From Niabella ginsenosidivorans (lineage in GTDB: Bacteria > Bacteroidota > Bacteroidia > Chitinophagales > Chitinophagaceae): 64,000 nucleotides of DNA. Made by a program: the position numbers and the translations under genes. Below the pieces are notes generated by a model. It saw nothing but the letters and a program-made list of their open reading frames with translations. It ran no database searches and was not told where the DNA came from. Shown piece by piece: positions 21,734 through 43,052 of the stretch; position 1 is the first letter of the stretch, and the number at the start of each line of letters is the position of its first letter. The stretch lies in contig NZ_CP015772.1 of the NCBI RefSeq assembly GCF_001654455.1, positions 310,001 through 374,000 of the forward strand. The letters are read 5' to 3'.

Positions 21734-22534
21734 ATGATGTTATTAGGTTTTTTTCTCTGGTTGCTGATTGGTCTTCTTCTGGGGCTGATGGGGGCTGGCG
21801 GCAGTATTATAACGGTACCTGTTTTAGTATATTTTTTTCACATTGATGCTTCCACTGCAGCATTATATTCCCTGTTCATTGTTGGCACAACAAGCCTGCT
21901 GGGCGCATTTTCCTATTTAAAGCAGGGATTGGTGAGCAGGAAAGTAACAGTAGATTTTGGGTTGCCTTCAATTATCGCTGTTGTGATCACCAGAATGTTT
22001 ATAGAACCGATGTTTCCGGAAACCTTTTTTTATGTAAGAGGGGTGGCATTTACAAAAGAGGCTTTTCTGATGTGCCTGCTTTCCGGTACAATGTTCGTTG
22101 CTTCGTATTATATAATCTGTTCTAAAAGAGGCCGTCGCAAAAAAGGAGTGCCTGTTACTGATGATTATTTTATGCTGGTGAGCCGCGGCATAGTTGTGGG
22201 CATCTTATGCGGGTTAGTGGGCGTTGGGGGCGGGTTCCTTATTATTCCTGCGCTTCTCCTGTTCAGTAAACTTGATATAAAGAGAGCGATTGGTACCTCT
22301 TTAACGATCATTGCCCTGCAATCGACGGCTGGCTTTTTAAGCGGCTGGAGATCGTACAGTATCAACTGGGCCTTTATCCTGCAGATTTCCGTAATTACCA
22401 TGTCAGGGGTATTCATTGGCTCGGTACTGTCTAAAAAAGTGGATGGCAGAAAACTAAAAACAGGTTTCGGGTGGCTTGTAGCAATTGCCGCCTTTTATAT
22501 TATTGTGCATGAGGCCGTATTAAAGATCCTGTGA
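21734..22534 (+). CDS. TauE/SafE-family sulfite/organosulfonate exporter
   Basis: The frame opens at 21677 but tandem ATGs at 21734 and 21737 start the expected first helix. Seen: LIGLLLGLMGAGGSIITVP near 10-28 and the repeat LCGLVGVGGGFLIIPALLL near 155-175, the duplicated Gly-rich motif of the TauE/SafE family, with about eight helices in all. Family members export sulfite or related anions and are often found beside sulfonate-degrading genes. Here it converges on an operon with an SsuD-type monooxygenase that would release sulfite, which gives the assignment real context. Confidence 0.83.
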   Translation: MMLLGFFLWLLIGLLLGLMGAGGSIITVPVLVYFFHIDASTAALYSLFIVGTTSLLGAFSYLKQGLVSRKVTVDFGLPSIIAVVITRMFIEPMFPETFFYVRGVAFTKEAFLMCLLSGTMFVASYYIICSKRGRRKKGVPVTDDYFMLVSRGIVVGILCGLVGVGGGFLIIPALLLFSKLDIKRAIGTSLTIIALQSTAGFLSGWRSYSINWAFILQISVITMSGVFIGSVLSKKVDGRKLKTGFGWLVAIAAFYIIVHEAVLKIL

Positions 22535-22595
22535 ATGCGGCTGCGCTTTTCTGCTTTTAGAGGAGCTGTCATTGAATTAAAAGCTATGAAAGACC

Positions 22596-23120
22596 TCAGA
22601 ATTTCACCAGCCGCTGGATCTGATCGATGATGAGCCTATGGATGAATTCATCTGTTACAATGCCTTCAACAAAGTTTTTTTTCATCAGCGGGATACGGAT
22701 CTTTTGTGGCAATACATACATTCCCAGATAATTGAATATATCTGTAATATGGCTCAGGCCTAACGCGTTTCCTGATACGCCATCGGAGATGCCCACCAGG
22801 GCGCATTTCTTATTGTGCAGTGCGTTAGGGTAGCTAAGTCCGTCTATAAAGGCTTTGAATACACCGGGAACGGAGTTGTTGTATTCAGGTAAAACAAATA
22901 CGTATTTTTCAGCCTGCTCAATTTCATGGCGGATCTCGTTGAATTTCTGATTTTTCCCGATATTATGATAAAGCGCCGATACAATAAAGTCTTCCGGCAG
23001 ATCAGCAAGATCAAGGATCCGGCCGGGAACATGTATCATGTCTAACTGGTTTTTATAGAACTCGGCTACTTTCCGGGATTTCGAATGCAAGCGATTGGTT
23101 CCTACTACAATGGTGATCAT
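22596..23120 (-). CDS. NADPH-dependent FMN reductase
   Basis: The 174 residues have a flavodoxin-like fold: the FMN-phosphate loop VVGTNRLHSKSRKVAEF near 5-21, the conserved LPEYNNSVPGVFKAFIDGL near 76-94, and GNALGLSHI near 115. Such enzymes make free reduced FMN for two-component monooxygenases, as SsuE does for SsuD. It is the last gene of the minus-strand operon headed by the SsuD-like enzyme, 21 bases or more after the symporter gene, so supplying FMNH2 to that enzyme is its likely job. Confidence 0.85.
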   Translation of the reverse strand: MITIVVGTNRLHSKSRKVAEFYKNQLDMIHVPGRILDLADLPEDFIVSALYHNIGKNQKFNEIRHEIEQAEKYVFVLPEYNNSVPGVFKAFIDGLSYPNALHNKKCALVGISDGVSGNALGLSHITDIFNYLGMYVLPQKIRIPLMKKNFVEGIVTDEFIHRLIIDQIQRLVKF

Positions 23121-23151
23121 GCTTAATAAATGGTTTTCACGTAAACAGATT

Positions 23152-24942
23152 TTAAGCGAAAAAATACAAAATCCAAATCAGCGCTCCTGTTAGTATTCCG
23201 GCATAAAAAATATCGGATTGATAAAAACGATAACCGGATTCTTCTTTCCGCATATACCAGAGAAACAACCCAAATGTAAGCAAAGCAGCCGGATACGCGG
23301 CTACCTGTGGTGTAATGATACGGAACAGCACCAGCGCCAGGATCGGAGCATGAATAACGACCGCTCTTACTATTGCTTTTCCGGTTCCTGAAAATGAAAC
23401 CGACAGTTCGTTGGTTGCTACAACACCCCGTGTACGGTTAAAGTAATTACTTAACACTACCAGCAGGATGGATCCTACAAAAAAGATCATAAATACACGG
23501 TGCAGAAAGTTGAAATGAGTACCAAAGAGGTTGGCTACAGTTGCAAAGTTTGCAAGGAAATGATTATACAGTATGTCCAGCCCCCATCCGATAAGCGGTG
23601 AAGCGATCAGCACTGTTAAGGCGGCAATGGGATGTGTTTTGCGCCAGAGAATTCCCCAGAAGAAAACCACCACCAGCCCGGGTTTGATATAAGAAGCCTG
23701 ATTGGCAAGGATGAGGAAAAAGTTTTCAGAAGAATTAGGATCAAATGTAACATATGCAAGCGCAGTAGCAATTGCGCACATTACTATGATCCCTAACTGC
23801 CCGAATCTTACCGTACGCCGGTCAGACGCATGCTTGTTGATATAATTGCGGTAAATATCATATGCAAGCATGGTGGATACCGAATTCATCATCGAATATA
23901 TGGCGGAGAAGATCGCGCAGATAAGCCCGGCCAGGATCAATCCACTCAGTCCAAAGCCCACCGGCACAACCGTTTTTAACAGCGTGATAAATGTGTCGTC
24001 CGGCAATACCACGTTTTTACCAAAGCGGGAGTTGAACAGATAGAAGGCAGCTGTTCCTGCCGCAATGGAAAAAAAAGGAATGAGAAATTTAAGCATTCCT
24101 GCAACGATAGATCCTAACTTGGCATCGCGCTCGGTTTCGGCTGCCAGCACCCGCTGCACCTGGTACTGATTCGTGGTCCAGTAAAAAAAATGGAGGATGA
24201 CCAGTCCTGTAAAAACACCGGTCCATGGCAGGTCGGGATGATTTGCCGGCAGGTAAAGGTGCATTTTGTTTGCATGGGCATGATCCAGCCTGAGGAGCCC
24301 GGTAAATCCACCAATTTCAGGCTGCATAAATGTAAGGGTGCCAATAACCAGTACCGCTAATACCATGATCACGGTTAAAATATTATCTGCAATCACAACG
24401 GATGACATGCCGCCAAAAACGGTAAAGACAATCGTTACTATGGCAATGACCAGTATACCCTGTATATAGGTAGGCTCCAGCGCGGTGCCTTCAAAGAGGA
24501 TCCCGAGCGTACGGCTGCCAATGTAAAAGCCGGCGATCAGCTGGATCATGATAAAGGCCAGCATCAGGATCGTATATGCCAGGCGGGAGCCCCGGTTGAA
24601 CCGGTTTTCCAGAAACTGTGATAACGTAAAAAAATTACCTTTCCGGTACACGGGAATGAACACATAGACCAGTATAAGGATTGCTGCTACTGCCAGAAAC
24701 TCATAATGACTTTGGGCAAATCCAATAGAATAGCCTACCCCCATCATTCCTATGATCTGCTGGGCGTGAATGTTGGTGCCGAAAATGGACCCGGCTACCG
24801 AGTACCATTTTAATGACCTTCCGGCCATAAAATATTCTTCAGAATTCTTTTTCCGGAAACTCGAATACATACTGGCGATGACAAAAGAAAGCAAAAGAAG
24901 CGCAACAACAACGAGGTCTATAGTACTTAGGCTCCGGATCAT
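23152..24942 (-). CDS. Sodium/solute symporter (SSS family)
   Basis: The ATG at 24942 gives about 596 residues with 13 or more helices and the SSS hallmarks: AGRSLKWYSVAGSIFGTNIHAQQIIGM near 40-66 (split for reading: AGRSLKWY, then SIFGTNIHAQ), LGSIVAGMLKFLIPF, and LAGLICAIFSAIYSMMNSVS near 345. SSS proteins couple sodium entry to uptake of sugars, amino acids or anions. Being placed between an SDR and an FMN reductase in the SsuD-type operon, it probably imports the sulfonate or sugar used by that pathway. Substrate cannot be read directly. Confidence 0.87.
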   Translation of the reverse strand: MIRSLSTIDLVVVALLLLSFVIASMYSSFRKKNSEEYFMAGRSLKWYSVAGSIFGTNIHAQQIIGMMGVGYSIGFAQSHYEFLAVAAILILVYVFIPVYRKGNFFTLSQFLENRFNRGSRLAYTILMLAFIMIQLIAGFYIGSRTLGILFEGTALEPTYIQGILVIAIVTIVFTVFGGMSSVVIADNILTVIMVLAVLVIGTLTFMQPEIGGFTGLLRLDHAHANKMHLYLPANHPDLPWTGVFTGLVILHFFYWTTNQYQVQRVLAAETERDAKLGSIVAGMLKFLIPFFSIAAGTAAFYLFNSRFGKNVVLPDDTFITLLKTVVPVGFGLSGLILAGLICAIFSAIYSMMNSVSTMLAYDIYRNYINKHASDRRTVRFGQLGIIVMCAIATALAYVTFDPNSSENFFLILANQASYIKPGLVVVFFWGILWRKTHPIAALTVLIASPLIGWGLDILYNHFLANFATVANLFGTHFNFLHRVFMIFFVGSILLVVLSNYFNRTRGVVATNELSVSFSGTGKAIVRAVVIHAPILALVLFRIITPQVAAYPAALLTFGLFLWYMRKEESGYRFYQSDIFYAGILTGALIWILYFFA

Positions 24943-24951
24943 ACACAATTT

Positions 24952-25665
24952 CTAATATTCTTGCGAAAGCGGGTGAATCATCAGCTCGTCAATAACCACA
25001 TGTGCCGGCTGCCCCATCACAAAGCGGATGCCGGCAGACATGTTTTCATCAGTAAGCCATTCTTTTTTTTCAGGGGCATGCGGATCAGGATGGAAATCCG
25101 TATCAACTAAACCGGAATAAACCACGGAGACTTTGATGCCGTCCCGGCGCACCTCTTTACGCAGTGCCGCGGAGAACGCATCCTGCGCAAATTTAGAGGA
25201 ACAGTATAATGCCCCGCCGTCGAAGACGCGTTTGGCTACGTCAGACGCAATATTGATGATATGACCTGCACCCGCCTTTTTCATTGGACCCATTGCTGCT
25301 TTGCAGAACAGGAAGGTACCTTTTACGTTGGTGTCATACAGGTCGGACCAGGCTTGTTCACTGTACCCTTCGGTAGGGCCAAAAATTCCGTAACCGGCAT
25401 TGTTGACCAGATAGTCGATCCGGCCGAATGTCTCAATCATTTTGGAAACAGCCTCGTTTGCCAGTTGCTCATCAGCAACGCTTCCGGTAAAGGTGAGCAC
25501 CTTTACTCCATATTCTTCTGCCGCGTTTTTTACCTGTTCAAGCGTTTCTTTGTTACGGGCAACCAGCCCCAGGTGCGCCCCTTCAGCTGCCAGATCCAGC
25601 GCCAGCCTTTTTCCTATTCCCCGGGATGCACCGGTAATCAATACGGTCCTCTGCTTAAAACTCAT
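24952..25665 (-). CDS. Short-chain dehydrogenase/reductase
   Basis: The ATG at 25665 gives 237 residues; a TTG six codons earlier is also open. Seen: cofactor loop TGASRGIG near 11, NNAGYGIFG near 87, catalytic Ser in INIASDVA and YCSSK (Tyr-x-x-x-Lys) near 152-156. It is an NAD(P)-dependent SDR. In the operon it lies 25 bases after the SsuD-like gene and nine before the symporter. Oxygenolytic desulfonation makes an aldehyde, and an SDR reducing that aldehyde (for instance 6-oxoglucose to glucose) would fit. This role is inference. Confidence 0.85.
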   Translation of the reverse strand: MSFKQRTVLITGASRGIGKRLALDLAAEGAHLGLVARNKETLEQVKNAAEEYGVKVLTFTGSVADEQLANEAVSKMIETFGRIDYLVNNAGYGIFGPTEGYSEQAWSDLYDTNVKGTFLFCKAAMGPMKKAGAGHIINIASDVAKRVFDGGALYCSSKFAQDAFSAALRKEVRRDGIKVSVVYSGLVDTDFHPDPHAPEKKEWLTDENMSAGIRFVMGQPAHVVIDELMIHPLSQEY

Positions 25666-25690
25666 AGAAAATGATCCTTTCAATTTATAA

Positions 25691-26863
25691 TTAATAAACT
25701 TTTAATTCGCCTGTTGTTAACGGCGTTACAGGTGTTGCAGAAGGAGTGCGCCCCTGTTCCACAGACAACTTTATGGTCGGTAGCTGCGGCAATACCAGCC
25801 TTCCGAAAAATTCACACTCTTCAATAAGCGGGTACCCGGAAAGTATAAATGCCCGGATGCCCATGTCCATATACCGGTTTAATTTTTCAATGATCTGATC
25901 CGGGGTACCCACCAGTGCAGCTCCACACCCGGAGCGTGCACGCCCGATACCTGTCCACAGCATGGGCTCTATGAAGTCGTCAGGATCTGCATTCTTACGC
26001 AGTTCATCCTGCCGGAGCACGCCCGCCGAGTGAGAGTCCTGTGCGCGGTGTTTTAGTTTCTGTCCCATTTCCGCATCAAACTTCGACATCAGCGTTTTTG
26101 TATATTGACGGGCTTCTTCTTCCGTTTCGCGAACGATTACATGAATACGTAAACCAAAATCAATTTTCCGGTCATATGCAGCAGCACGCCCGCTCATCTC
26201 CTGCATCGTTGCATAGATCTGCTCTTCGGGTTCCGGCCACATCAGAAAAACATCGCAGTGTCTGGCACAAACGTCCTTGGAACCCGGAGAAATACCTCCG
26301 AAATACAACAACGGCCCCCCGTTTTGCTGGTAGGGTTTTACGGGGTCTGCAGGCATTTTGTAGCGGTAAATTTCTCCTTCAAAATCTATTTCGTCTTTTG
26401 TCCAGGCTTGTTTCAGGATCTCTATGACCTCCTCACAACGCCTGTACCGCAATTCCGGAGATTCCCGCAGACCCGGAAGATCTGAATTGATGATATTAAT
26501 GGTAAGACGCCCTTCCAGCATATGGTCAAGCGTTGATATATGCCGGGCCAGCATGGGAGGATGTATCTCACCCGTACGGATGGCGGCCAGCATATTGATA
26601 TTTTTTACCTGGGGCGCCATGGCTCCGGCAAACGGAAGCACTTCCTGTCCGGTGATATACGAAGTCGGGAGCAGAATATTTTTAAAGCCCATCCGGTCTG
26701 CAGTTTTAATGATGTCGGCACAGTGGGCATAATTGCTGCGTCTTTTGGGGTCAACGGTACCAAGGAAAGCAGTATCTCCGCCGCAAAGATCATCGAACCA
26801 GGCGATTTCACAGGCTCTTTTTTCTGTTCGGATGGGTACGGATTGAAAAGATTGCGTTGACAT
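25691..26863 (-). CDS. SsuD-type FMNH2-dependent sulfonate monooxygenase
   Basis: The 390-residue TIM-barrel flavin monooxygenase (LLM class) aligns well with SsuD: LYFGGISPGSKDVCARHCD, then GLRIHVIVRET near 235 (the Arg and His of the SsuD active site), GIGRARSGCGAALVG near 305 (the loop Arg) and FILSGYPLIEE near 335 (the Tyr). SsuD enzymes cleave the C-S bond of a sulfonate with O2 and FMNH2, giving aldehyde and sulfite. The Cys near residue 54 of E. coli SsuD is not matched. It heads the operon SsuD-SDR-SSS-FMN reductase. Alkanesulfonate or sulfoquinovose are both possible substrates. Confidence 0.85.
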   Translation of the reverse strand: MSTQSFQSVPIRTEKRACEIAWFDDLCGGDTAFLGTVDPKRRSNYAHCADIIKTADRMGFKNILLPTSYITGQEVLPFAGAMAPQVKNINMLAAIRTGEIHPPMLARHISTLDHMLEGRLTINIINSDLPGLRESPELRYRRCEEVIEILKQAWTKDEIDFEGEIYRYKMPADPVKPYQQNGGPLLYFGGISPGSKDVCARHCDVFLMWPEPEEQIYATMQEMSGRAAAYDRKIDFGLRIHVIVRETEEEARQYTKTLMSKFDAEMGQKLKHRAQDSHSAGVLRQDELRKNADPDDFIEPMLWTGIGRARSGCGAALVGTPDQIIEKLNRYMDMGIRAFILSGYPLIEECEFFGRLVLPQLPTIKLSVEQGRTPSATPVTPLTTGELKVY

Positions 26864-27083
26864 TGATTAAAGATTTACAATTAGTGAATAATTTTAAAAT
26901 AGATCTTCCGGGCTATCAGGCAAAGCAGGCTGTATGCATTTCTATAAACGGATAACCTGTTAACGGATACTGCTGTCATGTCTGCAGTATAGTCTGTTTG
27001 AATTGAAAAAGCACTCTTTTCCCGAAAGTTTCCTGTATGGCACTGATCGTTCATTGTTATATATCGGCAATATTGCTGCTGAA

Positions 27084-27397: not shown

Positions 27398-27414
27398 CAC
27401 TCTCAAATTTTAAT

Positions 27415-27588: not shown

Positions 27589-27774
27589 AAGTGAGGCATT
27601 TCTGGTAATGCCTGCAAGAGGAATATCCGCATGATAATAAAAAAAGGTAATCAGGTATAAGAATAATTAATTTGACTTTTTGATGAATTAGTCCTTTCTT
27701 CGGTAAGAGAACCGGTTTAAAACTACTGTTCAATTTTTTTCTTTCGATTGCTAAATTATTATAGAGCCTATATT

Positions 27775-30700
27775 ATGAGACAACTGTTACAGCCCCGGAA
27801 GTGGTATCTTTTGGTATTGCAAATCTTATTCCTGTTGGGGAGCGCCTTTGCACAAAAGGAAATAGAAGTAAGCGGCATCGTTACAAACGGACGCAATGAG
27901 CCTATTACCGGCGTGTCGGTATCGGTCGCTGGTAAAAATGCACTTACCGCCACCAACCAGGAAGGCAGGTACACGATAGCTGTTTCTGCAAAAGCCACTT
28001 TGGTTTTTTCCTCCGTTGGCTACAGGTCAGAGGAAATTGCAGTAGATGGCAAAAAAACCATCAATGTAGTCCTTGTTGAGGATCTGGCTTCACTGGGCGA
28101 GGTCGTTGTAATCGGGTACGGTGCCCAGAAGCGGGTGAACGTAGTGGGCGCGGTTGCTTCCGTTAGCGGAGCCAAGCTGGAATCCATTCCGGCTGCTGAT
28201 GTAACAAACGCCATTGCCGGGCGGTTGCCGGGAGTAACCGTAAGACAGCCTACGGGGGAACCTGGTCAGAATGCTGCCGATATCCGGGTGCGGGGGCGTA
28301 CCACATTGGGTACGGGCACGGGGCCCCTGGTGGTGATTGACGGGGTGCCCGGCCGCTCGCTGAGCGAAATAGATCCTGTGGACATCAGCAGCATTTCAGT
28401 TCTGAAAGATGCCTCTTCCGCAATTTATGGAACCCAGGCTGCAAATGGTGTTATCCTGGTTACTACAAAAAAAGGAAAAGCCGGCACCAAGCCCAGGCTG
28501 AACTATCAGTTCTATCAGGGTTTTATGAAGCCGACAATATTGCCTAAAGTACTGAATGCAGGCGACTATGCCACGATGCTGAGCGAATACCAGGATTATG
28601 AAGGGCGGCCGCGTACTTTTTCCGATGAAGACATTGCACTGTATTACAGTGGCAGGGATCCCTGGGAACACCCGAATACCAACTGGATGAATGACCTTAT
28701 TGCCGATTGGACCACAACAAGCAAGCACAATCTTTCAATCAGCGGAGGAGGAGCCAATGGCATGACCTATTATCTTTCATTGGGGTATAAGAATGAAGAG
28801 GCTATCTATAAACAGGAGTCTACACGATACCGGGAATATAGTGTAAGAGCCAAGCTGGATGTGCCCATCACCGATTGGCTCAAAGGTAGTGTGAATTATG
28901 CGGGATATATTCCCAGCCGGCTGTACCCGACCAAATCTGCAGCAGATATTTACGGGCAGTCTACCCGGCTGCTTCCCACCCAATGGTCGTTCTGGCCAAC
29001 AGGGCAACCGGGCCCGGATATCGAATATGGAGATAATCCTGTTGTAACCTCAACGCTTCAGGGTGGCTATAATGATAAAAAGCAGTATAAAAGCGAAATG
29101 GCTTTTAACCTGACCATTACCCCACCAATGATCAAAGGACTTACTTTAAATGGTATGTTCTCCTATGACCTGTACAACACTTACCAGAAAATATTCCGGA
29201 CCCCATGGACACTGTATTTCCCGGATTGGGGCTCTGCTCAACGGGATGCGGATGGTTTTATCACCAGTATGGATCTGGTTCCTACACTGCGCGGTTACAG
29301 CGCGCCGGAACTGCAGGAAAACTATGCCCGCAGTATCCGCCAGCTGGGTAATGTAAACTTTACCTATGCCCGGGAATTCGGTGCGCACTCCGTTTCCCTC
29401 TTCGGCGCTTACGAGCAATTGAAGGAGAGCTCTAATGATCTTGGTGCATTCAGGAAATATTATATTTCCGACATTGTGCAAACCATCAATGCCGGTTCAA
29501 ATACAGATAAGGACAACTCAGGCTCTATGAGCATCTATGCCCGCGAATCATGGATCGGCCGGTTAAATTACAGCTACCTCAGCAAGTACCTGGTAGAACT
29601 GCTTTTTCGCCGGGATGGTTCATTGAAATTTCCGCCGCAGAGCCGGTGGGGAAATTTTCCTGCGGTGTTGTTAGGCTGGCAGGCGTCTGAAGAGCCTTTC
29701 TGGAAAGAACACCTGGGGTTCTTCAGCTACTTTAAGTTACGTGCCACTTACGGTAAAATGGGCATGGATCCGGGTGATGCATTTCAATATATGAATAAGT
29801 ATACCCTTAATACCGGCGTGGCCATGGGCAGCGGAAAGGATGTTGAAACAGTAGTACGGCAGGCCGGGGTAGCCAATCCTTTTATCACCTGGGAAAAACA
29901 AACAACCTATAACGTCGGCTTCGATTCTTATATCCTTAAAGACAAATTTCATTTGAATACCGAGTTCTTCTATAATAAACGTTCGGACATCCTTGCGCCC
30001 AGGAACGCATCAGTGCCTGACTATACCGGGTTGCAGCTGCCGGACGAGAACATAGCGGCAGTTGATAACAAGGGGTTTGAAGTGGATCTCGGTTACCACC
30101 AGCAGCTGAGCAAAAATTTCAGAATCGATGTAGCGGGTAATGTAAGCTGGAGCCATAACAGGGTACTTTTTACTGATGAACCTGCACGTACAGTGCCCTG
30201 GCAGGTGCGTACAGGTCATTCTTACGGTGCTGTTCTTTTGTACCGGGCAATTGGCATTTTTGCCGACCAGGCTGCGGTGGATGCATACCCGCACTGGAAA
30301 GGCGCAAAACCGGGTGATGTGATCTTTGAAGATGTAAACGGCGATGGCCAGATCACCAGCGATGACCAGATTTTGCTGGACAGGGCCGATGCTCCGGAAT
30401 TGTTGATGGGGCTATCAATTGACCTGCGGTATAAGAACTGGTCATTGTCATTACTGGCCCAGGGGCAGGGCAGCTACTACCGGCAAAATTATGCAGACGA
30501 CCGCCGGGGGGAAGCAGGCAACTATTTCCAGTGGAACTTTGATAATCGCTGGACCCCTGAGAACACGCATACAAATATCGCCCGGGCGTATAACAGGGCA
30601 GACCAGTACTGGGGCTTTGGTGTGAATAACAGTACTTATTGGTATGATAATATGGCATATATCCGAATGAAGAATGCTGTATTGAATTATGAGCTTCCAA

Positions 30701-35719: not shown

Positions 35720-36664
35720 ATGGAACGTAGAAATTTTATAAAAAAGGCTGCCGCTGCCGGTGGCACAGCTATGCTGGGCTTGGGAGCCACCTCCCGTGCC
35801 GCTTCTTTTATGAAGGAAATGACAGGGGATAAAAAAAGCATTTCCAACAGGGCGAAATTCAGGTTGAAATACGCGCCCGGCCTTACCCTGTTTTCAGCGT
35901 ATGCCGGGAAAGATCCTGTTGATAATATGAAGTTCATTGCTGATCAGGGATTCCGGGCGGTATTTGAACTGGGCATGGTTAATCTTCCTGCTGCTACACA
36001 GGAAAAGATAGCGAATGCTGCTGCACGATTAGGATTGGAAATGGCAGAATTCTCATTAAAGATAGACTTTAGCGGCAGCACCTTTGTATTACAGGATCCG
36101 GAGATAAAAGAAATGCTGAGGAAGAAAGTTATGGCAGGTATAGAAGTGCAGAAACGCACCGGCATCAATAAGGCGTTGGTTGTATTGGGCCGTTATGATC
36201 AAAAGCTTCATTGGGATTACCAGACTGCGAATGTGATTGATAACTTACGGATGTGTTGTGAGCTGGCAGAAAAACCGGGGCTCACCTTTGTAATAGAACC
36301 ACTGAATCATACTAATCATCCCGGGTTGTTCCTTACGCGCCTGCCGCAGGCAAAAATGATATGCATAGCCGTTGGCCACCCAAACTGCAGGATCGTGGAT
36401 GATATGTATCACCAGCAGATCACAGAGGGGAATATCATTCCGCATATGGATAACTGCTGGGACTATATCGGCTCATTCCATATTGGTGACAATCCTGGCC
36501 GTAACGAGCCTGCTTCCGGGGAAATGAATTATAGGAATATCTTCAGGCATATTTATGAGAAGGGATACAAGGGCACCCTCTGTTGTGAACATGGAAAAAG
36601 CAAACCCGGAAAAGAAGGAGCGCTTGCTGTGATACAGGCATATCGTGAAGCGGATTCATTTTAA
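35720..36664 (+). CDS. Sugar isomerase/epimerase-like TIM-barrel protein, exported
   Basis: The 314 residues start with MERRNFIKKAAAAGGTAMLG, a Tat-type signal, then a hydroxypyruvate-isomerase-like TIM barrel. Metal ligands of the family are visible: FVIEPLNH near 195 (Glu), RIVDDMYHQQ near 234 (Asp, His), and LCCEHGKSKPG near 290 (Glu, His). It probably isomerises or epimerises a ketosugar produced by the operon. It is the last gene of the SusCD operon, 15 bases after the DUF1080 gene. Confidence 0.8.
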   Translation: MERRNFIKKAAAAGGTAMLGLGATSRAASFMKEMTGDKKSISNRAKFRLKYAPGLTLFSAYAGKDPVDNMKFIADQGFRAVFELGMVNLPAATQEKIANAAARLGLEMAEFSLKIDFSGSTFVLQDPEIKEMLRKKVMAGIEVQKRTGINKALVVLGRYDQKLHWDYQTANVIDNLRMCCELAEKPGLTFVIEPLNHTNHPGLFLTRLPQAKMICIAVGHPNCRIVDDMYHQQITEGNIIPHMDNCWDYIGSFHIGDNPGRNEPASGEMNYRNIFRHIYEKGYKGTLCCEHGKSKPGKEGALAVIQAYREADSF

Positions 36665-36727: not shown

Positions 36728-37681
36728 TTACAACCATACGATCACCAATAACGATGCGATCGTTATCAACATCCACAGTGCCACCGCCTGAATTAACACC
36801 TTTCCACCCACTACCTGTTTCACTGTTCCTACCGAAACGCCCGAGCCGATCATAAACAGGCTCACCACCATCATTTGTTTTGCAATAGCGTACAGATCTT
36901 TAAACAGCTTTTGTTCGGCAGGCATAAGGCTGAATAAGCAGGAGGCAAGAATAAACCCAATAATGAACAAAGGGAATTTTAATGTGCCCCTGTTTTTAGA
37001 AGAGCCGATCACTAAAACAGCCAGCACGGGAATGATCCATAAGATCCGGAGCATTTTTGATATGGAAGCTACTTTCAATGCTTCATCTCCGTAATGTGCA
37101 CTGGCGCCTACTACAGAGCTGGTATCATGTATAGCAATGGCAACCCAATGTCCGAATTGTACCTGCGACAATCCGAGCCAGTGCCCGAATGCCGGAAAGA
37201 TAAACAGGGCCAGGGCATTCAGCAGGAATACAGTACCTGTAGCAACAGAGAGCTGGTCAGAATTTGCCTTTACGGTTGAGCCCACTGCTGCAATAGCGCT
37301 TCCGCCGCAGATTGCCGTGCCAACGGAAATTAATAATGCAATGGTTTTATCAATTTTTAAGAGTGCGCCCAGCAGGATGCCGATAGCCAAAGCGCCTAAC
37401 ACAAATCCTGCAGTAACACCAATGTTCTCCCTGCCTGCATGAACCAGCACATGAATATCTATACCAAAACCAAATCCGATTACAGATGCTTTCAGTAAAA
37501 TACCGCTCCATTTATTCATAAGGTTTTTAAAAGGGGCGCCCATCAATACGGAAGCCAGTAATCCCAACAGCAATGCGCAGGAGGCTGACACAAACGGAAA
37601 ACAACAGGTAAGCAGTAACAGTATATAGAGCAGCTGTGGATACCGGCTGTTATTTTGGAAGCGGTAAATTTTACCTTTCAT
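36728..37681 (-). CDS. YeiH-family putative sulfite/sulfate exporter
   Basis: The ATG at 37681 gives 317 residues with about ten helices and the family text NKWSGILLKASVIGFGFG near 60, GSAIAAVG near 130 (ICGGSAIAAVGSTVKANS) and AIHDTSSVVGAS near 190. The YeiH family is annotated as a sulfate or sulfite exporter and in enterobacteria is paired with the LysR regulator YeiE. The same pairing occurs here: a LysR gene ends 58 bases upstream on the same strand. Export of sulfite from sulfonate degradation would fit. TCTATTTG just upstream may be a weak promoter of its own. Confidence 0.82.
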   Translation of the reverse strand: MKGKIYRFQNNSRYPQLLYILLLLTCCFPFVSASCALLLGLLASVLMGAPFKNLMNKWSGILLKASVIGFGFGIDIHVLVHAGRENIGVTAGFVLGALAIGILLGALLKIDKTIALLISVGTAICGGSAIAAVGSTVKANSDQLSVATGTVFLLNALALFIFPAFGHWLGLSQVQFGHWVAIAIHDTSSVVGASAHYGDEALKVASISKMLRILWIIPVLAVLVIGSSKNRGTLKFPLFIIGFILASCLFSLMPAEQKLFKDLYAIAKQMMVVSLFMIGSGVSVGTVKQVVGGKVLIQAVALWMLITIASLLVIVWL

Positions 37682-37739
37682 ACGTTGTGAAGGTAAAATG
37701 TTTCCGTCTTGCAAATAGATGAGTATTACTTATCTGCGA

Positions 37740-38636
37740 TCACCTTTCTTTATAATGTTGCCGGGTATACCGCATAAACATTGTCGAGAATTTGTCCGGC
37801 TGCCCATGCAGATAAATAAAGGAGAAATGCCGCATGATCCGGAAGCCCCGGATGTGGATTATTTTCAGTTCCCCATATTGTATTTCCTTGTGTATGGCAT
37901 GCATTGAAATAAACGCTACCGAGTGCGAGTTTTCGAGAAAGGATTTTATACTTTCAGTACCTCCCAAATGCATAATAACAGGTAGATCGGCAAGGCTGAT
38001 ATTTCTTTCCTGGAGCGCTATCTCGATCACTTCAAGAGTGCCGGATCCCCGCTCTCTTAACACCATAGGCATTTTTTTCAGTTCATCCAGCTCAATGGTA
38101 TCTTCTTTGGCATACCTGCTCTTTGCATGCGTAACCAGCACCAGTTCATCAGATGTTAATTCAGCGTACTTCAGCCCCGTATGATGTCTTTTTCCTTCTA
38201 CAATGCCAAGGCTGATGCTTTTTGACAGAACGGCGTTTTCAATTGCTTCCGTATTGCCGCTCATTAGATTGAGCCTGATCTCCGGAAACTTTTTCTGGAA
38301 GCCGCCTAATACCGGGGATATCAGGTATTGGGCAATAGTGGTGCTGGCCCCAACCGTAAAAGAACCGGCAGGTTTTGCCTTTAATACGCTGAGTTCAAAA
38401 TTGAATTCTTTGTATAACTGAAAGATCTCATTGGTATACCGGAACAGGAGCTCTCCTTCCTGGGTCATAACAACAGAATTACTGACGCGTTCAAAAAGCC
38501 GGGTCTCCAGTAATTCTTCCAGGTTCTTGACCTGTTTGGTAACTGCCGGCTGGGTAATAAGCAATTCTGCTGCTGCCTTTGTGAAACTTTTGTTACGCGC
38601 TACCGAATGAAATACCTTTAATCTAAAATCTTCCAT
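37740..38636 (-). CDS. LysR-family transcriptional regulator
   Basis: The ATG at 38636 gives 298 residues. The N-terminal winged helix shows FHSVARNKSFTKAAAELLITQ and QPAVTKQVKNLEELLETRLF, and the periplasmic-binding-like effector domain fills about 90-298 (FTVGASTTIAQYL, LRERGSGTLEVIE). It groups by eye with CysB/CbbR/YeiE-like regulators. It is divergent from the DUF1080-GMC operon and co-directional with the YeiH exporter, so it likely controls one or both. Sulfite or a sulfur metabolite as effector is a guess from the neighbours. Confidence 0.85.
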   Translation of the reverse strand: MEDFRLKVFHSVARNKSFTKAAAELLITQPAVTKQVKNLEELLETRLFERVSNSVVMTQEGELLFRYTNEIFQLYKEFNFELSVLKAKPAGSFTVGASTTIAQYLISPVLGGFQKKFPEIRLNLMSGNTEAIENAVLSKSISLGIVEGKRHHTGLKYAELTSDELVLVTHAKSRYAKEDTIELDELKKMPMVLRERGSGTLEVIEIALQERNISLADLPVIMHLGGTESIKSFLENSHSVAFISMHAIHKEIQYGELKIIHIRGFRIMRHFSFIYLHGQPDKFSTMFMRYTRQHYKER

Positions 38637-38823
38637 AATGTCGAATTTGCAGTTGTTCAAGAATGATCAGGAAAATAATGAAAGATAGCAAGTATTTTTT
38701 TAAACGTATTGTAAGCTTGTGATAATTCAGATGAATTGTATGGCAGCAGCGCTATGAACTTTCGTAATCACTCATAAGGATAAATAATTAGGATATTACC
38801 ATTATAGTTGATATTTTTAGAGC
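38637..38823. promoter_or_regulatory. LysR/DUF1080 divergent control region
   Basis: The 187-base spacer contains the dyad AATTC-AGAT-GAATT (38724-38737), whose ATTC/GAAT arms and spacing fit a LysR-type T-N11-A site. TATTTTTA (38812-38819) is a weak -7 match only five bases before the ATG of the plus gene, which would give a leaderless message. Confidence 0.4.
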
Positions 38824-39510
38824 ATGACGATGAAGCCGGAAGAAACAGAAGTCTGGGAACCTGTTCCTGTTATTGTAAAACCAGGTAGCGGTTGGGATCC
38901 TCCAGGTGACGCTGTTATTTTGTTTGACGGAAAAGACATGTCTGAATGGGATATTCCGGAAAATACCAGGTGGGTTGTAAAAGACGGTATGGTTACAATT
39001 GCTGCTTCCCATGCCCGGCAGGTTCAGCCGGTATGGATTTTTTCCAGGAAGATGTTTGGAGATATTCAGCTGCACGTAGAATGGTGTTCGCCGGAAAAAA
39101 TTAAAGGAGAAGGACAGCGCCGGGGTAACAGCGGTATCTTTCTGCCGGGGCGGTATGAGATTCAGGTGTTGGATAGTTATCAGAATCCTACTTATGTAAA
39201 CGGCCAGTGCGCAAGCATCTATAAGCAATACTCCCCGTTGGTCAATGCCTGCCGCAGGCCGGGAGCATGGCAGACATATGATATTATTTTCAGGGCACCG
39301 AGGTTTTTCCGTAATGGCCGCCTAAAGTCTGCAGCCCGCGTTACGGTGATCCATAATGGCGTTTTGGTACAAAACCATGTAAAGATAAAAGGAGCTACCA
39401 CGTTTATAGGCAACCCTGAATATGTTGCCCATCCTGTAAAGCAGCCCCTCGGTTTACAGGACCATGGTAATGCGGTAAGTTTCCGGAATATTTGGTTAAG
39501 AGAGCTTTGA
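38824..39510 (+). CDS. DUF1080 3-keto-glycoside hydrolase/lyase, no signal peptide
   Basis: At 228 residues this DUF1080 protein lacks any signal sequence and begins directly with MTMKPEETEVWEPVPVIV, so it appears cytoplasmic, unlike its two exported relatives. Core motifs: DAVILFDGKDMSEWD near 30, FGDIQLHVEWCSPE near 78, RGNSGIFLPGRYEIQVLDS near 100, SFRNIWLREL at the end. It heads the operon with the GMC dehydrogenase. It closely resembles the protein at 34874. A missed upstream start is not evident, since the preceding bases contain stop codons in frame near the ATG. Confidence 0.83.
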   Translation: MTMKPEETEVWEPVPVIVKPGSGWDPPGDAVILFDGKDMSEWDIPENTRWVVKDGMVTIAASHARQVQPVWIFSRKMFGDIQLHVEWCSPEKIKGEGQRRGNSGIFLPGRYEIQVLDSYQNPTYVNGQCASIYKQYSPLVNACRRPGAWQTYDIIFRAPRFFRNGRLKSAARVTVIHNGVLVQNHVKIKGATTFIGNPEYVAHPVKQPLGLQDHGNAVSFRNIWLREL

Positions 39511-39553
39511 GTTATTATCTCTGTTTATTTTATAGTTATTAAATTATTTTGTT

Positions 39554-41236
39554 ATGGCTGAAAATGTGTACGATGCCATCGTAGTCGGATCGGGTATCTC
39601 AGGCGGCTGGGCTGCCAAAGAACTAACGGAGAAAGGTTTAAAAACGTTGTTATTGGAACGTGGCCGGAATGTTGAGCACATAAAGGATTACGTTGATGCC
39701 GGCAAAGCGCCCTGGGAATTTCCGCACCGGGGGCAAACCACCCGGCAAATGAAAGAAGATTATCCCGTGCTTGTCCGGCATTATGGAACTGTTGAGCAGC
39801 GGGGGCTGGATTTCTGGGTGAAGGAAAAAGAAAGCCCCTTTGTAGAGGTTGCACCATTTGACTGGATCCGGGGGTATCATGTAGGCGGGCGCTCATTAAT
39901 GTGGGGGCGCCAGAGTTATCGCTGGAGCGATTTGGATTTTGAAGCCAATGCAAAAGACGGGATTGCGGTTGACTGGCCCATCCGGTATAAGGATATAGCG
40001 CCGTGGTACGACTATGTAGAACGCTTTATTGGTGTGAGCGGTGCTGCAGATGGAATACCGGAGTTGCCTGACGGCCAGTTTATGCCGCCGATGGCAATGA
40101 ATTGTGTTGAAAAGGATGCAGCAGTCAGGATTCAAAAACATTACGGCGGCAAACGGCATATGATCATTGGCCGCACTGCCAATATTACCAGGCAGTTGCC
40201 GGGCCGGTCGCCCTGCCAGTATCAGAGTAAATGCGGCCTTGGATGTTTTTACGGAGCGTACTTCAGCACGCAGTCATCTACTCTTCCCGCAGCAGTAAAA
40301 ACAGGTAATTTAACACTGAGGCCCTGGTCTATTGTAACCAGGGTATTATATGACAAAGATACGAAACGGGCTACGGGGGTAGAAGTGCTGGATGCCGAAA
40401 CCAATAAAACATATGAGTTCAAAGCAAAAATCATCTTTTTAAATGCATCTACCTTAAATACAGCCTGGGTATTGATGAACTCGGCAACAGATATATGGCC
40501 GGATGGATTGGGCAGCAGTTCCGGCGAACTGGGGCATAACATTATGGACCATCATTTCCGGGTTGGTGCAAACGGAGAGGTTGATGGGTACGAAGATAAA
40601 TATTACTATGGCCGCAGGCCTAATGGCATTTACATACCCCGTTTCCGCAATCTGAACGGAGAAAAAAGGGATTACATCCGTGGGTTTGGCTACCAGGGAG
40701 GAGCCGGCCGGAAAGGCTGGGGCCGGAATATTGCAGAGTTCAGGATAGGCGCTGCATTTAAGGATGCATTAACAGAGGCCGGAGGGTGGACTATGGGCAT
40801 CAGCGCCTGGGGCGAGATCCTGCCCTATCATGAAAACAGGGCTTATCTGAATAAAGAAACCAAAGATAAGTGGGGGTTGCCAGTTTTGTCCCTGGATGCG
40901 TCCATTAAGGAAAATGAGAAGAAAATGCGGGTCGATATGATGGAAGATGCCAAAGAGATGCTTGAAATTGCCGGTGTAAAAAATGTAAAAACCTTTGACG
41001 GCAATTATTTAATGGGAGGCTCCATACATGAAATGGGTACAGCGCGGATGGGGCGCGATCCCGGGACCTCCGTATTGAATGCACACAACCAGGTATGGGA
41101 CGCATTAAATGTTTTTGTAACTGATGGCGCCTGTATGACGTCTTCTGCCTGCCAGAACCCATCCCTTACGTATATGGCATTAACAGCACGGGCTGTTGAT
41201 TATGCCGTATCTGAACTGAAAAAACAAAATCTTTAA
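39554..41236 (+). CDS. GMC-family glycoside/pyranose 3-dehydrogenase, catalytic subunit
   Basis: The 560-residue FAD enzyme shows the dinucleotide motif AIVVGSGISGGWAAKEL near 9-25, GRSLMWGRQSYRW near 113, NASTLNTAW near 295, and the C-terminal GMC box with HEMGTARMGRDP near 490 and NPSLTYMALTARAVDYA near 535. A gluconate-2-dehydrogenase subunit 3 gene follows, as in the membrane-linked complexes that oxidise glycosides at C3. The product would feed DUF1080 cleavage. No signal peptide is seen; it may be exported in complex with its Tat-type partner. Confidence 0.87.
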   Translation: MAENVYDAIVVGSGISGGWAAKELTEKGLKTLLLERGRNVEHIKDYVDAGKAPWEFPHRGQTTRQMKEDYPVLVRHYGTVEQRGLDFWVKEKESPFVEVAPFDWIRGYHVGGRSLMWGRQSYRWSDLDFEANAKDGIAVDWPIRYKDIAPWYDYVERFIGVSGAADGIPELPDGQFMPPMAMNCVEKDAAVRIQKHYGGKRHMIIGRTANITRQLPGRSPCQYQSKCGLGCFYGAYFSTQSSTLPAAVKTGNLTLRPWSIVTRVLYDKDTKRATGVEVLDAETNKTYEFKAKIIFLNASTLNTAWVLMNSATDIWPDGLGSSSGELGHNIMDHHFRVGANGEVDGYEDKYYYGRRPNGIYIPRFRNLNGEKRDYIRGFGYQGGAGRKGWGRNIAEFRIGAAFKDALTEAGGWTMGISAWGEILPYHENRAYLNKETKDKWGLPVLSLDASIKENEKKMRVDMMEDAKEMLEIAGVKNVKTFDGNYLMGGSIHEMGTARMGRDPGTSVLNAHNQVWDALNVFVTDGACMTSSACQNPSLTYMALTARAVDYAVSELKKQNL

Positions 41237-41269
41237 TGCCTGTTTTCAGGTTCGTAATATTATTTTACT

Positions 41270-41830
41270 ATGGATAGAAAAGAAGCCGTTCACAGAATAG
41301 CGCTCCTCCTGGGGGGAACCGTTGTAGGAGCAGAGTTATTGTCCTCCTGCGTATCAGATGTGAAAAAAGGCCACAAACTGGCCGGCCAGGAACATATATC
41401 GCTGCTGGATGAAATAGGAGATACCATTATACCATCTACCAGCTCACCCGGGGCCAAAGCCGCAGGCATAGGCGGTTTTATGCTGCTGATGGTGCAGGAC
41501 TGTTATAAGCCAGCTGATCAAAAGGTTTTTTATGAGGGCATTGAAGCAATTAATAAGGCAAGCAACCAGAAATACAATAAGGTTTTTTTACAGCTTGATG
41601 CCGGGCAGCGCGAAGCGTTGTTGTTAGCAATTGATAAGGAGCAGGAAGATTATATGAAAAAGAGGGATAAAAAAGATCCGGCGCATTACTTCCGGATGAT
41701 GAAGGAGCTGACCTTACTGGGGTTTTTTACTTCTGAAGTGGGCGCCACCAAGGCATTGCGCTATGTGGCCGTGCCGGGAAGATATGAAGAGATCCCCTAT
41801 AAAAAGGGGGATAAGGCCTGGGCTACCTGA
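41270..41830 (+). CDS. Gluconate 2-dehydrogenase subunit 3 family protein
   Basis: The 186-residue small subunit begins MDRKEAVHRIALLLGGTVVG with a hydrophobic stretch and a Cys in SSCVSD that could be a lipidation site. The domain holds LLDEIGDTIIPSTSSPGAKAAG near 45-66 and FTSEVGATKALRYVAVPGRYEE near 150 (read GATKALRY and PGRYEE). In such dehydrogenases this subunit anchors or exports the GMC subunit and passes electrons on. It lies 33 bases after the GMC gene. Confidence 0.85.
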   Translation: MDRKEAVHRIALLLGGTVVGAELLSSCVSDVKKGHKLAGQEHISLLDEIGDTIIPSTSSPGAKAAGIGGFMLLMVQDCYKPADQKVFYEGIEAINKASNQKYNKVFLQLDAGQREALLLAIDKEQEDYMKKRDKKDPAHYFRMMKELTLLGFFTSEVGATKALRYVAVPGRYEEIPYKKGDKAWAT

Positions 41831-41885
41831 GCCGGAATTTAGCAAACAGACCGGTTGGCAATATAAAAAGCAACTACAACAGCAG

Positions 41886-43052
41886 ATGAACAGAAAACTC
41901 AGAATGGGAATGATTGGTGGCGGCAGAAATGCTTTTATAGGGGCTGTTCACCGTGTTGCAGCAAATATGGACGGATTAATTGAAGTGGTTTGCGGGGCGT
42001 TAAGCACTGATCCGGAAAATGCGCTGCATAGCGGCCGCTCGCTTTTTTTACCCGAAGAGCGTATTTACCTGACATATGAAGAAATGCTTCGGAAGGAACG
42101 TCAGCTTCCGGCAGATCAGCGTATGGATTTTGTAACCATTGTAACGCCCAACTTTGCACATTTTGAACCCGCAATGATGGCACTTGAAAATGGCTTTCAC
42201 GTGGTGAGCGAAAAACCGCTTACCCTTACGCTGGAAGAAGCACTGCAGTTGCAGCGTAAAATACAGAAGACGGGTTTGCGGCTGATGCTTACACATACCT
42301 ATTCCGGATACCCGATGGTAAAAGAAGCCCGCAGTATGGTAAGAGCCGGAAAACTCGGGGAAATCAGAAAAGTAATTGTTGAATATCCGCAAGGCTGGCT
42401 AAGCAGGTTAGTATATAAAGGCGGAAACCCACAGGCAGCATGGAGAGCCGATCCGGAACGTTCAGGCAAAAGTGGCTGTATGGCCGACATCGGCACACAT
42501 GCCGCACACTTAGCCGAGTATGTTACCGGTTTAAGGATCACCGAATTGTGTGCTCAGTTAAGCGTGATGACTACCGGCAATTCTTTGGATGATGACGGGA
42601 ATGTGCTGCTGAAATTCAATAATGGGGCCACGGGGGTGCTATTAGCTTCCCAGGTAGCTACAGGGGAAGAGAATGCGCTGAAGATCAGGGTGTACGGTCA
42701 AAAAGGGGGTATAGAATGGTTTCAGCAGGAGCCCAACTCATTGTTGGTAAAATGGGCGGATAGCTTTATGCAGACGGTACGTGCCGGTACCCGGTATACC
42801 GGTCTTCTGTCTGAAGATGCATTGCATAATTGCAGAACGCCCGGAGGCCACCCGGAAGGATATTTGGAGGCCTTTGCCAATTTGTACCGGAATTTTGCAG
42901 GAATGCTTTCCGCCGAAATGGATGGCCGCAATCCCTCTGATCAGATGCTGGATTTTCCATCGATCAGCGACGGGGTCCGTGGAATGGCTTTTATCGAATG
43001 CGTGCTCGCCAGCAATGCCTCTGATGAAAAGTGGACGAAGTTTACCTGTTAG
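41886..43052 (+). CDS. Gfo/Idh/MocA-family oxidoreductase, cytoplasmic
   Basis: The frame opens at 41763 inside the preceding gene, but the ATG at 41886 starts with the NAD loop (MNRKLRMGMIGGGRNAFIGA), giving 388 residues. HVVSEKPLTLT near 100 is the EKP motif, and MADIGTHAAHLAEYVTG near 200 supplies the usual Asp/His pair. Without a signal peptide it should act in the cytoplasm on a sugar or keto-sugar. It completes the DUF1080-GMC-subunit 3 operon. Reducing a 3-keto-sugar back to the sugar is a plausible role. Confidence 0.82.
   Translation: MNRKLRMGMIGGGRNAFIGAVHRVAANMDGLIEVVCGALSTDPENALHSGRSLFLPEERIYLTYEEMLRKERQLPADQRMDFVTIVTPNFAHFEPAMMALENGFHVVSEKPLTLTLEEALQLQRKIQKTGLRLMLTHTYSGYPMVKEARSMVRAGKLGEIRKVIVEYPQGWLSRLVYKGGNPQAAWRADPERSGKSGCMADIGTHAAHLAEYVTGLRITELCAQLSVMTTGNSLDDDGNVLLKFNNGATGVLLASQVATGEENALKIRVYGQKGGIEWFQQEPNSLLVKWADSFMQTVRAGTRYTGLLSEDALHNCRTPGGHPEGYLEAFANLYRNFAGMLSAEMDGRNPSDQMLDFPSISDGVRGMAFIECVLASNASDEKWTKFTC

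Follow-up and report, generated by a model that had tools for sequence, protein, structure and literature searches.

Does a 21-kb region of the Niabella ginsenosidivorans genome serve a single sulfonated glycoside? The region lies in a window of 64,000 nucleotides (the whole stretch of DNA analysed) and joins genes typical of sulfoquinovose desulfonation to genes typical of glycoside cleavage through 3-keto forms; a preliminary description had proposed that both chemistries act on one substrate. Sulfoquinovose turnover amounts to about 10 billion tonnes per year (PMC10755693). The sulfo-SMO pathway is assigned mainly to alpha- and betaproteobacteria in the accessible parts of reviews, and Actinomycetota and Spirochaetota were added in 2026.

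Gene content and family membership of the locus are established by Pfam profiles, all above curated cut-offs (Table 1), and every gene named in the preliminary description was recovered in its place at these cut-offs; the TIM-barrel protein, DUF1080c, and Gfo2 had not been listed separately there. The SMO-type genes bracket the SusCD/Gfo1/DUF1080 operon, with the genes for TauE, FMN reductase, symporter, SDR, and SMO on one side and the YeiH–LysR pair on the other.

Table 1. Genes of the locus, with their positions in the window.
Feature	Position	Strand	Evidence
TauE/SafE-family exporter, candidate sulfite exporter	21677..22534	+	PF01925 (E 7.7e-36)
NAD(P)H:FMN reductase, would provide FMNH2 to SMO	22596..23120	-	PF03358 (E 1.2e-25)
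SGLT-type sodium:sugar symporter (SSF), candidate sulfoquinovose importer	23152..24948	-	PF00474
SDR, candidate 6-dehydroglucose reductase in place of aldo/keto reductase	24952..25683	-	PF00106
SmoC-like flavin-dependent LLM monooxygenase (SMO), candidate sulfoquinovose monooxygenase	25691..26863	-	PDB scores, tree, residues
SusC-like TonB-dependent outer-membrane transporter	27748..30867	+	PF07715, PF13715
SusD-like surface lipoprotein	30889..32775	+	PF07980, PF14322
Gfo1, Gfo/Idh/MocA oxidoreductase 1, candidate exported glycoside 3-dehydrogenase	32808..33995	+	PF01408, twin-arginine-like leader
DUF1080a, 3-keto-glycoside hydrolase family	34028..34870	+	PF06439 (E 1.1e-31), twin-arginine-like leader
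DUF1080b, 3-keto-glycoside hydrolase family	34874..35704	+	PF06439 (E 3.2e-42), Sec-like leader
AP_endonuc_2 TIM-barrel protein, isomerase/epimerase-like	35720..36664	+	PF01261 (E 6.7e-26), twin-arginine leader (TIGR01409 over cut-off)
YeiH-family exporter	36728..37714	-	PF03601 (E 8.4e-47), TIGR00698 below cut-off
LysR regulator, paired with YeiH	37740..38660	-	PF03466, PF00126, YeiE model below cut-off
DUF1080c, divergent from LysR	38824..39510	+	PF06439 (E 1.2e-41), leader not seen
GMC oxidoreductase, candidate catalytic subunit of glycoside 3-dehydrogenase	39554..41236	+	PF05199, PF00732
Gluconate_2-dh3 (subunit 3) family, GMC partner	41270..41830	+	PF13618 (E 2.3e-38)
Gfo2, Gfo/Idh/MocA oxidoreductase 2	41763..43052 (longest frame; real start may be an internal Met, ~41886)	+	PF22725, PF01408

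The best PDB matches of SMO were 7olf (462 bits) and 7oh2 (452 bits), which we take to be SmoC-type sulfoquinovose monooxygenases, versus 200 bits for MsuD and 190 bits for SsuD, under half of the SmoC score. Over the aligned chain stretches, SMO is 54.4% and 52.9% identical to 7olf and 7oh2, versus 33.3% and 34.7% to SsuD and MsuD. With the NCBIfam SsuD equivalog model TIGR03565, it scored 250 bits, under half of the cut-off of 518; this shortfall and the PDB scores rule out SsuD proper. Like SsuD/SsuE and MsuD, the locus combines an FMN reductase with an LLM flavin monooxygenase carrying the Arg/His/Arg/Tyr set that had been reported for it (R239, H241, R310, and Y344). The comparisons support a SmoC-like, not an SsuD-like, monooxygenase. 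The earlier "SsuD-like" label is thereby withdrawn, and the sulfoquinovose half of that claim emerges stronger than proposed, with a SmoC-like enzyme, an SGLT-type symporter, and sulfite-disposal families.

The tree position of SMO is established: the window clade falls between the SmoC-type and the Novosphingobium GH31-linked clusters. A rhizobial SMO, 86% identical to 7oh2, is clustered with GH188, an aldo/keto reductase, a flavin reductase, and a YeiH-type exporter, and the Novosphingobium PP1Y SMO, which lies outside the window clade, is clustered with a YihQ-like GH31 (43%) and an aldo/keto reductase (37%). The window SMO is thus bracketed by the two. Sequence and tree thus point to a SmoC/SquD-type monooxygenase, with a difference at position 346, which is Leu in the window SMO and in all window-clade (18/18) and sister-clade (38/38) rows of the alignment, versus His in the SmoC, marine, Verrucomicrobiota, Novosphingobium, and SsuD rows.

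The shared Leu346 would fit an SMO that acts on another sulfonate, either a different 6-sulfo sugar or a non-sugar compound, the latter perhaps being the case in the sister clade with its amidohydrolase links, and the locus would then serve that compound. The neighbours in this sister clade are amidohydrolase and amino-acid-permease genes, many loci pairing SMO with Amidohydro_3 and an amino-acid permease; in Emticicia, SMO is paired with GH95; and sulfofucose is described as a natural sulfosugar in the available part of one source (PMC12421959). However, both R310 and Y344 are replaced by Phe in 24 of the 38 sister-clade rows (23 of these 24 adjoin an amidohydrolase), and both are kept in 18/18 window-clade rows, so the clearest divergence lies in the sister clade. 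The window-clade SMO is, moreover, partnered by a symporter of the SGLT type and, at some loci, by GH13 or GH95 genes. We consider a different sulfonate improbable.

The proposed partners of a sulfoquinovose monooxygenase were compared in the same manner. A flavin reductase is predicted in the cluster from PF03358, the SsuE/MsuE NCBIfam models matching far below cut-off; in 16 further loci of the window clade, the surroundings of SMO contained neither an FMN reductase homologue nor an aldo/keto reductase. The best PDB matches of the symporter were the sodium/glucose cotransporter 2xq2 (187 bits) and SGLT1 (165 bits), and an SSF gene lies near SMO in 11/16 window-clade loci. An oxidoreductase for 6-oxoglucose had been expected: the usual aldo/keto reductase (SmoB/SquF, PF00248) is missing among the locus proteins scanned, and an SDR with PDB matches to 2ehd and 2jah (clavaldehyde dehydrogenase) lies in its place, between SMO and the symporter. 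The SMO-SDR-SSF order recurs at one locus (L016) with an SDR of 58% identity, the only such SDR near SMO among the loci listed. Sulfite disposal could be provided by the predicted TauE and YeiH families; at another locus (L014), an SMO of 75% identity has YeiH (63% identical) and LysR (54% identical) genes nearby. The sulfo-SMO systems (sulfo-ASMO; SmoC/SquD) of Agrobacterium, Novosphingobium, and roseobacters likewise cluster a SmoC-like monooxygenase, flavin reductase, oxidoreductase, importer, and sulfite exporter. The present locus differs from them in that (i) an SDR stands for the aldo/keto reductase; (ii) an SGLT-type symporter and SusCD stand for ABC/TRAP transport; (iii) no GH31 or GH188 sulfoquinovosidase was found; and (iv) the host belongs to Bacteroidota.

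The glycosidase families near SMO loci elsewhere are GH31, GH188, GH13, and GH95. The GH31 or GH188 sulfoquinovosidase often present in such systems appears to be missing from the Niabella genome. A GH188 query search of the whole genome gave no match at 1e-8, although an empty result of this kind is uninformative unless a known-positive genome is included. The genome has four GH31 regions, which align poorly to YihQ and, in one alignment, are without counterparts of its sulfonate residues, in what we take to be the YihQ numbering; the Novosphingobium GH31 keeps R301, W304, and Y508. Neither Gfo protein is a GH188 enzyme by score: Gfo1, whose PDB neighbours are 3q2k, DgpA, and glucose-fructose oxidoreductase, reached just 45 bits with the GH188 entry 8zn9, and Gfo2 matched 3v5n (345 bits) and no GH188 entry at 1e-8, versus 514 and 367 bits for true GH188 proteins. 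The GH188 NAD+-dependent sulfoquinovosidase SqgA shares with the locus a Gfo/Idh/MocA-like fold, C3 oxidation, and occurrence with sulfo-SMO genes, but here oxidation and hydrolysis would be divided among several exported proteins.

The DUF1080, GMC, Gluconate_2-dh3, TIM-barrel epimerase-like, and Gfo genes are those of the 3-keto route (BT2157-type DUF1080 and LacABC-type or GMC-subunit 3 dehydrogenases), here joined to a C-S cleaving monooxygenase. Gfo1 scored far below the cut-offs of the NCBIfam models BT_2158 (72.8 bits; cut-off 750) and BT_2159 (43.6 bits; cut-off 650) and is a member of neither. DUF1080 hydrolases and nearby C3 dehydrogenase candidates are both present, and the GMC pair may perform the C3 oxidation. 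The 5.63-Mb genome has 13 PF06439 matches, 3 of which are within this 21 kb, versus about 0.05 expected by a hand calculation made after the fact. Gfo2 has a second copy in the genome (66% identical) and relatives in 15/16 genus mates, all of them SMO-less; as a paralogue of this gene, it was ruled out as evidence of joint acquisition. In one genus mate, the Gfo2-related gene adjoins a YkuD-family gene, which offers no functional hint.

We give even chances to the reading of the region as one sulfoquinovoside-utilisation locus, a Bacteroidota variant of sulfo-SMO in which 3-keto chemistry replaces the missing glycosidase. SusCD would take up a sulfoquinovoside, for example sulfoquinovosyl glycerol, which would be oxidised at C3 by Gfo1 and/or the GMC-subunit 3 dehydrogenase. 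The exported DUF1080 proteins would free the aglycone from the 3-keto glycoside. From the resulting 3-keto sugar, sulfoquinovose would be regenerated, by processing or reduction, through the TIM-barrel protein together with a Gfo enzyme, and would be imported via the SGLT-type symporter. The SmoC-like enzyme and FMN reductase would then cleave the C-S bond, yielding 6-dehydroglucose and sulfite; the SDR would convert the former to glucose, and TauE and/or YeiH would export the latter under the YeiE-like LysR regulator. Somewhat more tentatively, the exported multi-protein system (Gfo1 and/or GMC-subunit 3, DUF1080, and TIM-barrel) might constitute a third kind of sulfoquinovosidase, which would cleave sulfoquinovosides outside the cytoplasm and supply sulfoquinovose to a symporter of SGLT type and to a sulfolytic SMO. 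For this Bacteroidota arrangement, Verrucomicrobiota would offer a partial parallel in the order SMO-Gfo-Gfo-DUF1080. Because a close SmoC relative lies amid exported 3-keto enzymes, the bacterium may feed on sugars of plant sulfolipids in a way not yet described.

The expected co-occurrence of both halves across genomes was mostly contradicted. In the stretches examined round 80 SMO loci (53 of them at least 21 kb), DUF1080 was present at one locus and the GMC/subunit 3 pair at none; the DUF1080 profile, built from the three copies in the window and used with a 1e-4 limit, regained 7/8 other DUF1080 stretches of the own genome. No close Gfo1 relative was found in the 45 of 80 SMO-bearing genomes searched, the best being 34% identical, and DUF1080 was beside none of the Gfo1 homologues of 31–34% identity at five places inspected. 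Neighbours of the SMO loci were set by homology searches, some length-picked ORFs being shadow frames or without a Pfam match, and the survey of neighbours within 7 kb covered 78 of the 80 loci (L065 and L068 were left out, their SMO frame not having been picked).

These counts favour two neighbouring systems with two substrates, that is, a sulfo-SMO module for free sulfoquinovose beside an unrelated locus for a 3-keto glycoside such as a disaccharide or plant glucoside. A route for lactose and glucosides that combines DUF1080 with LacABC-type dehydrogenases is described in the accessible part of one source (PMC9007349), and with the DUF1080 matches of the genome grouped by hand into nine clusters, SMO would fall within about 7 kb of one by chance at about 2%, a small value from a hand calculation made after the fact. 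Against such an arrangement speak the SMO-type genes flanking the SusCD operon at either end, the LysR gene divergent from the DUF1080c-GMC operon, and the failure to find a known sulfoquinovosidase type in the genome. In addition, none of the 16 genus mates searched gave a match to SMO (at 1e-80) or to Gfo1 (at 1e-60). We regard two substrates as possible but rather unlikely.

The single-sulfoquinovoside reading, for the substrate and for both halves in one pathway, is plausible because of the interleaved genes, the lack of GH188 and YihQ-like GH31 matches in the genome, the joint absence of SMO and Gfo1 from the genus mates, and a Verrucomicrobiota contig (L076) on which SMO, Gfo, Gfo, and DUF1080 genes follow one another on one strand. 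The preliminary interpretation as a whole is partly supported, its link to the 3-keto half being weaker than the sulfonate half.

Base composition gave no mark of a recent transfer, with no GC contrast between the locus (46.8%) and its left (46.2%) and right (44.9%) flanks. The LysR/DUF1080c and SMO/SusC intergenic stretches have a few 16-mers alike at 2–3 mismatches, approximately the chance level by estimate, and no common regulatory motif was found. With this analysis, both Bacteroidota and Verrucomicrobiota gain candidate SMO clusters; sulfoquinovosidases of the two known types were not found in these loci. Named genes are now at hand for asking by what means sulfoquinovosides are opened in such bacteria. 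Should the 3-keto link prove true, DUF1080 beside SMO would be a marker of sulfolipid degradation. In the 7-kb survey, the Verrucomicrobiota locus L076 is among the 78 but outside the SMO cluster, because its SMO had been merged with a frame lying upstream.

Pfam matching found every gene family named in the preliminary description at its place in the locus, and the coordinates divide the genes by spacing into four transcription units (see the table), with the TauE gene standing alone on the left. The host genome is a single contig of 5.63 Mb. The sulfonate half of the locus comprises a flavin-dependent monooxygenase (SMO), an SDR, a sodium:sugar symporter (SSF), an FMN reductase, and exporters; the 3-keto half comprises the oxidoreductase Gfo1, DUF1080 proteins, and GMC with subunit 3. 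Translations judged by eye showed twin-arginine-like leaders on Gfo1, DUF1080a, and the TIM-barrel protein (TIM; this leader is above the NCBIfam cut-off) and a Sec-like leader on DUF1080b, from which the first 3-keto operon looks exported. No leader was seen by eye on SMO, SDR, FMN reductase, GMC, DUF1080c, or Gfo2.

Features of the window locus and of loci in other genomes (L-numbers, stretches around SMO relatives)
Feature	Sequence	Position	Strand	Unit or remark
SMO	window	25691-26863	minus	unit 1: SMO-SDR-SSF-FMN reductase; gaps 7, 3, 31 bases
SSF	window	23152-24948	minus	unit 1
Gfo1	window	32808-33995	plus	unit 2: SusC-SusD-Gfo1-DUF1080a-DUF1080b-TIM
DUF1080a	window	34028-34870	plus	unit 2
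DUF1080b	window	34874-35704	plus	unit 2
TIM	window	35720-36664	plus	unit 2
LysR-YeiH	window		minus	unit 3
DUF1080c	window	38824-39510	plus	unit 4: DUF1080c-GMC-subunit 3-Gfo2
Gfo2	window	41763-43052	plus	unit 4
Downstream set	window	43453-53439		
GH13 gene	L006	6361-8058		near SMO
GH13 gene	L008	6411-8111		near SMO
GH13 gene	L018	8164-9984		near SMO
GH13 gene	L058	6766-8412		near SMO
SMO-SSF, GH95 gene	L118	6489-12417		plasmid pEMTOL05

The desulfonation had been called SsuD-type; the sulfonate monooxygenase module stands, but the enzyme is SmoC-like. Its top matches among PDB chains were 7olf (462 bits) and 7oh2 (452 bits), followed by MsuD (7jv3, 200 bits) and SsuD (1nqk/1m41, 190 bits). Over the aligned chain stretches, SMO was 54.4% and 52.9% identical to 7olf and 7oh2, and 34.7% and 33.3% identical to MsuD and SsuD; at the 118 columns separating the SmoC pair from the SsuD/MsuD pair, it carries the SmoC residue at 59 and the SsuD residue at 17. 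We take 7olf to be the SmoC-type enzyme of Rhizobium oryzae and 7oh2 that of Agrobacterium, the PDB names themselves being silent on SmoC. This reading is supported by the gene context of the Rhizobium sp. SL42 homolog (86% identical to 7oh2), whose neighbors are a GH188 gene (514 bits to 8zn9 and 367 bits to 8qc3), an aldo/keto reductase, a flavin reductase, and a YeiH-type exporter; Ruegeria TM1040 shows the same gene set. The sequence evidence makes it very probable that the sulfonate half is a module of the sulfoquinovose monooxygenase type.

Removal by hand of 1 distant paralog and 22 near-duplicates from 104 collected SMO rows left 81 for a quick-search tree with SH-aLRT support values only. 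The SmoC rows group with marine Bacteroidota rows (SH-aLRT 95). Sister to these is a clade of 41 rows (99), in which the window clade (18 rows, 96) stands with 1 Pedobacter row and a clade often having amidohydrolase and amino-acid-permease neighbors (22 rows, 97). Outside this larger group lie the Novosphingobium PP1Y row, which has a YihQ-like GH31 gene (43% over 680 aa) and an aldo/keto reductase as neighbors, and the Verrucomicrobiota rows except L054, the first branch within the group. The places of the SmoC and PP1Y rows thus bracket the window SMO by clusters with known sulfoquinovosidase (SQase) types.

Residues R239, H241, R310, and Y344, matched to what we presume are the corresponding SsuD residue numbers, are retained in all 18 window-clade rows. 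In the sister set used for residue counts (38 rows, duplicates restored and the Pedobacter row included), 24 rows have Phe at both the R310 and Y344 positions, 23 of them with an amidohydrolase neighbor; the remaining 14 retain Arg and Tyr, none with such a neighbor. With these replacements, the substrate of the sister clade has probably changed. The SmoC, marine, Verrucomicrobiota, Novosphingobium, and SsuD rows have His at position 346, but every window-clade and sister row has Leu; Leu346 counts against the window SMO sharing identical substrate use with SmoC. Sister-clade loci (L028–L048 and related; Flavobacterium, Pedobacter, Runella, and others) have SusCD, Amidohydro_3, and amino-acid permease neighbors, some adding an SrpI-type encapsulin and a class-V aminotransferase.

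Bacterial and archaeal genomes yielded 129 SMO relatives, of which 80 were retained. Within 7 kb of SMO at 78 of these loci, we counted amino-acid permease (36), SSF (27), aldo/keto reductase (16), Mo-type sulfite dehydrogenase (15), YeiH (11), and FMN reductase (11). Many marine Flavobacteriaceae loci read aldo/keto reductase-SMO-SSF with FMN reductase, YeiH, LacI, and sulfite dehydrogenase, the aldo/keto reductase being 38–42% identical to the rhizobial one. Of the 16 other window-clade genome loci, 11 carry SSF, 5 sulfite dehydrogenase, and 1 YeiH; neither FMN reductase nor aldo/keto reductase lies near SMO in any of them. The window's SMO-SDR-SSF order recurs in L016, and L014 reads LysR-YeiH-sulfite dehydrogenase-hydrolase-SMO (LysR and YeiH 54% and 63% identical to the window genes). 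For the window symporter, the best match was 2xq2, a bacterial sodium/glucose cotransporter (187 bits). SMO genes also occur on plasmids, namely Emticicia oligotrophica pEMTOL05, where SMO-SSF precedes a GH95 gene, and two of Spirosoma oryzicola. A Verrucomicrobiota neighborhood with a ROK regulator, 1–2 Gfo/Idh/MocA genes, and in many cases an MFS transporter recurs (L061, L065, L067, L073, L076, L077, L081, L084, L136–L141, and L143, some being the same place reached twice); neither aldo/keto reductase nor known SQase types were found in these loci, and L077 runs on into sulfatases.

YihQ-like GH31 was found in 0 of the 80 SMO loci, and just two loci, both on proteobacterial plasmids, had a close GH188; weaker GH188 matches (26–29%) were other Gfo genes. 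The window's own genome gave no GH188 match at 1e-8, and in one alignment the sulfonate-contacting residues of YihQ, whose numbers we assumed, had no equivalent in its four GH31 regions. PDB matches rejected both Gfo1 and Gfo2 as GH188. Four of 78 loci, from Spirosoma, Fibrisoma, and a marine Flavobacterium, carry GH13 genes near SMO (mutual identity 51–87%), with phosphotrehalase (TreC) as the top NCBIfam model (L008 assigned by identity only). Because TreC enzymes recognize a charged group at C6, these genes may encode an unrecognized sulfoquinovosidase.

According to the available text of two papers, DUF1080 proteins are described or proposed 3-keto-glycoside hydrolases partnering C3 dehydrogenases (PMC9007349), and GH188 cleaves sulfoquinovosides via C3 oxidation within a single protein (PMC10755693). 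The window's genome has 13 DUF1080 domain matches in 11 frames, 3 of them in the locus. That both chemistries act on one sulfonated glycoside, as first proposed, is favored by the SMO-type genes on both flanks of the SusCD operon, by LysR-YeiH, the SMO companion in L014, running divergent from the DUF1080c-GMC operon, by the absence of both SMO and Gfo1 (no match at 1e-60) from all 16 genus mates, and by a Verrucomicrobiaceae contig (L076) with SMO-Gfo-Gfo-DUF1080 on one strand. Across the family, only 2 of 344 genomes have SMO, Niabella ginsenosidivorans itself being one of them; in 4 genus mates a PepSY gene comes after the left-flank TonB gene, this block being absent in the stretch read. 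However, co-occurrence in other genomes spoke mostly against the link: DUF1080 was found at a single one of the 80 SMO loci, L076, and GMC/subunit 3 at none (53 stretches are at least 21 kb, the rest shorter and mostly ended by contig ends). As a control, a DUF1080 profile made from the three window copies picked up 7 of the 8 remaining DUF1080 stretches in this genome at the 1e-4 limit used.

Gfo1 matched at 1e-40 in 3 of 45 SMO genomes (from 46 of the 80 loci; best 7e-45, 34% identity) and at 1e-60 in none of 394 other phylum genomes (at most 4 candidates scored per genome); 0 of 5 homologs (31–34% identity) has DUF1080 beside it. Gfo2 is a paralog of a gene found genus-wide. The two halves may thus have been joined within this lineage, and either a functional link or chance could account for it. 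The odds that the 3-keto half acts on the substrate of the sulfonate half are about even.

The sulfo-ASMO pathway is assigned exclusively to aerobes, mainly alpha- and betaproteobacteria, in the accessible portion of a 2026 review (PMC12890257), with much the same range in that of a 2022 review (PMC9594981); a 2026 survey, likewise in part, extends it to Actinomycetota and Spirochaetota (PMC13372026). No published description of SMO combined with 3-keto chemistry appeared in the titles and opening abstracts of the matches listed, which cover few subscription papers. Directly downstream of the locus, an ECF sigma/FecR/SusC/SusD set and, after it, a 921 aa protein bearing an M14 carboxypeptidase domain apparently form a separate import system.
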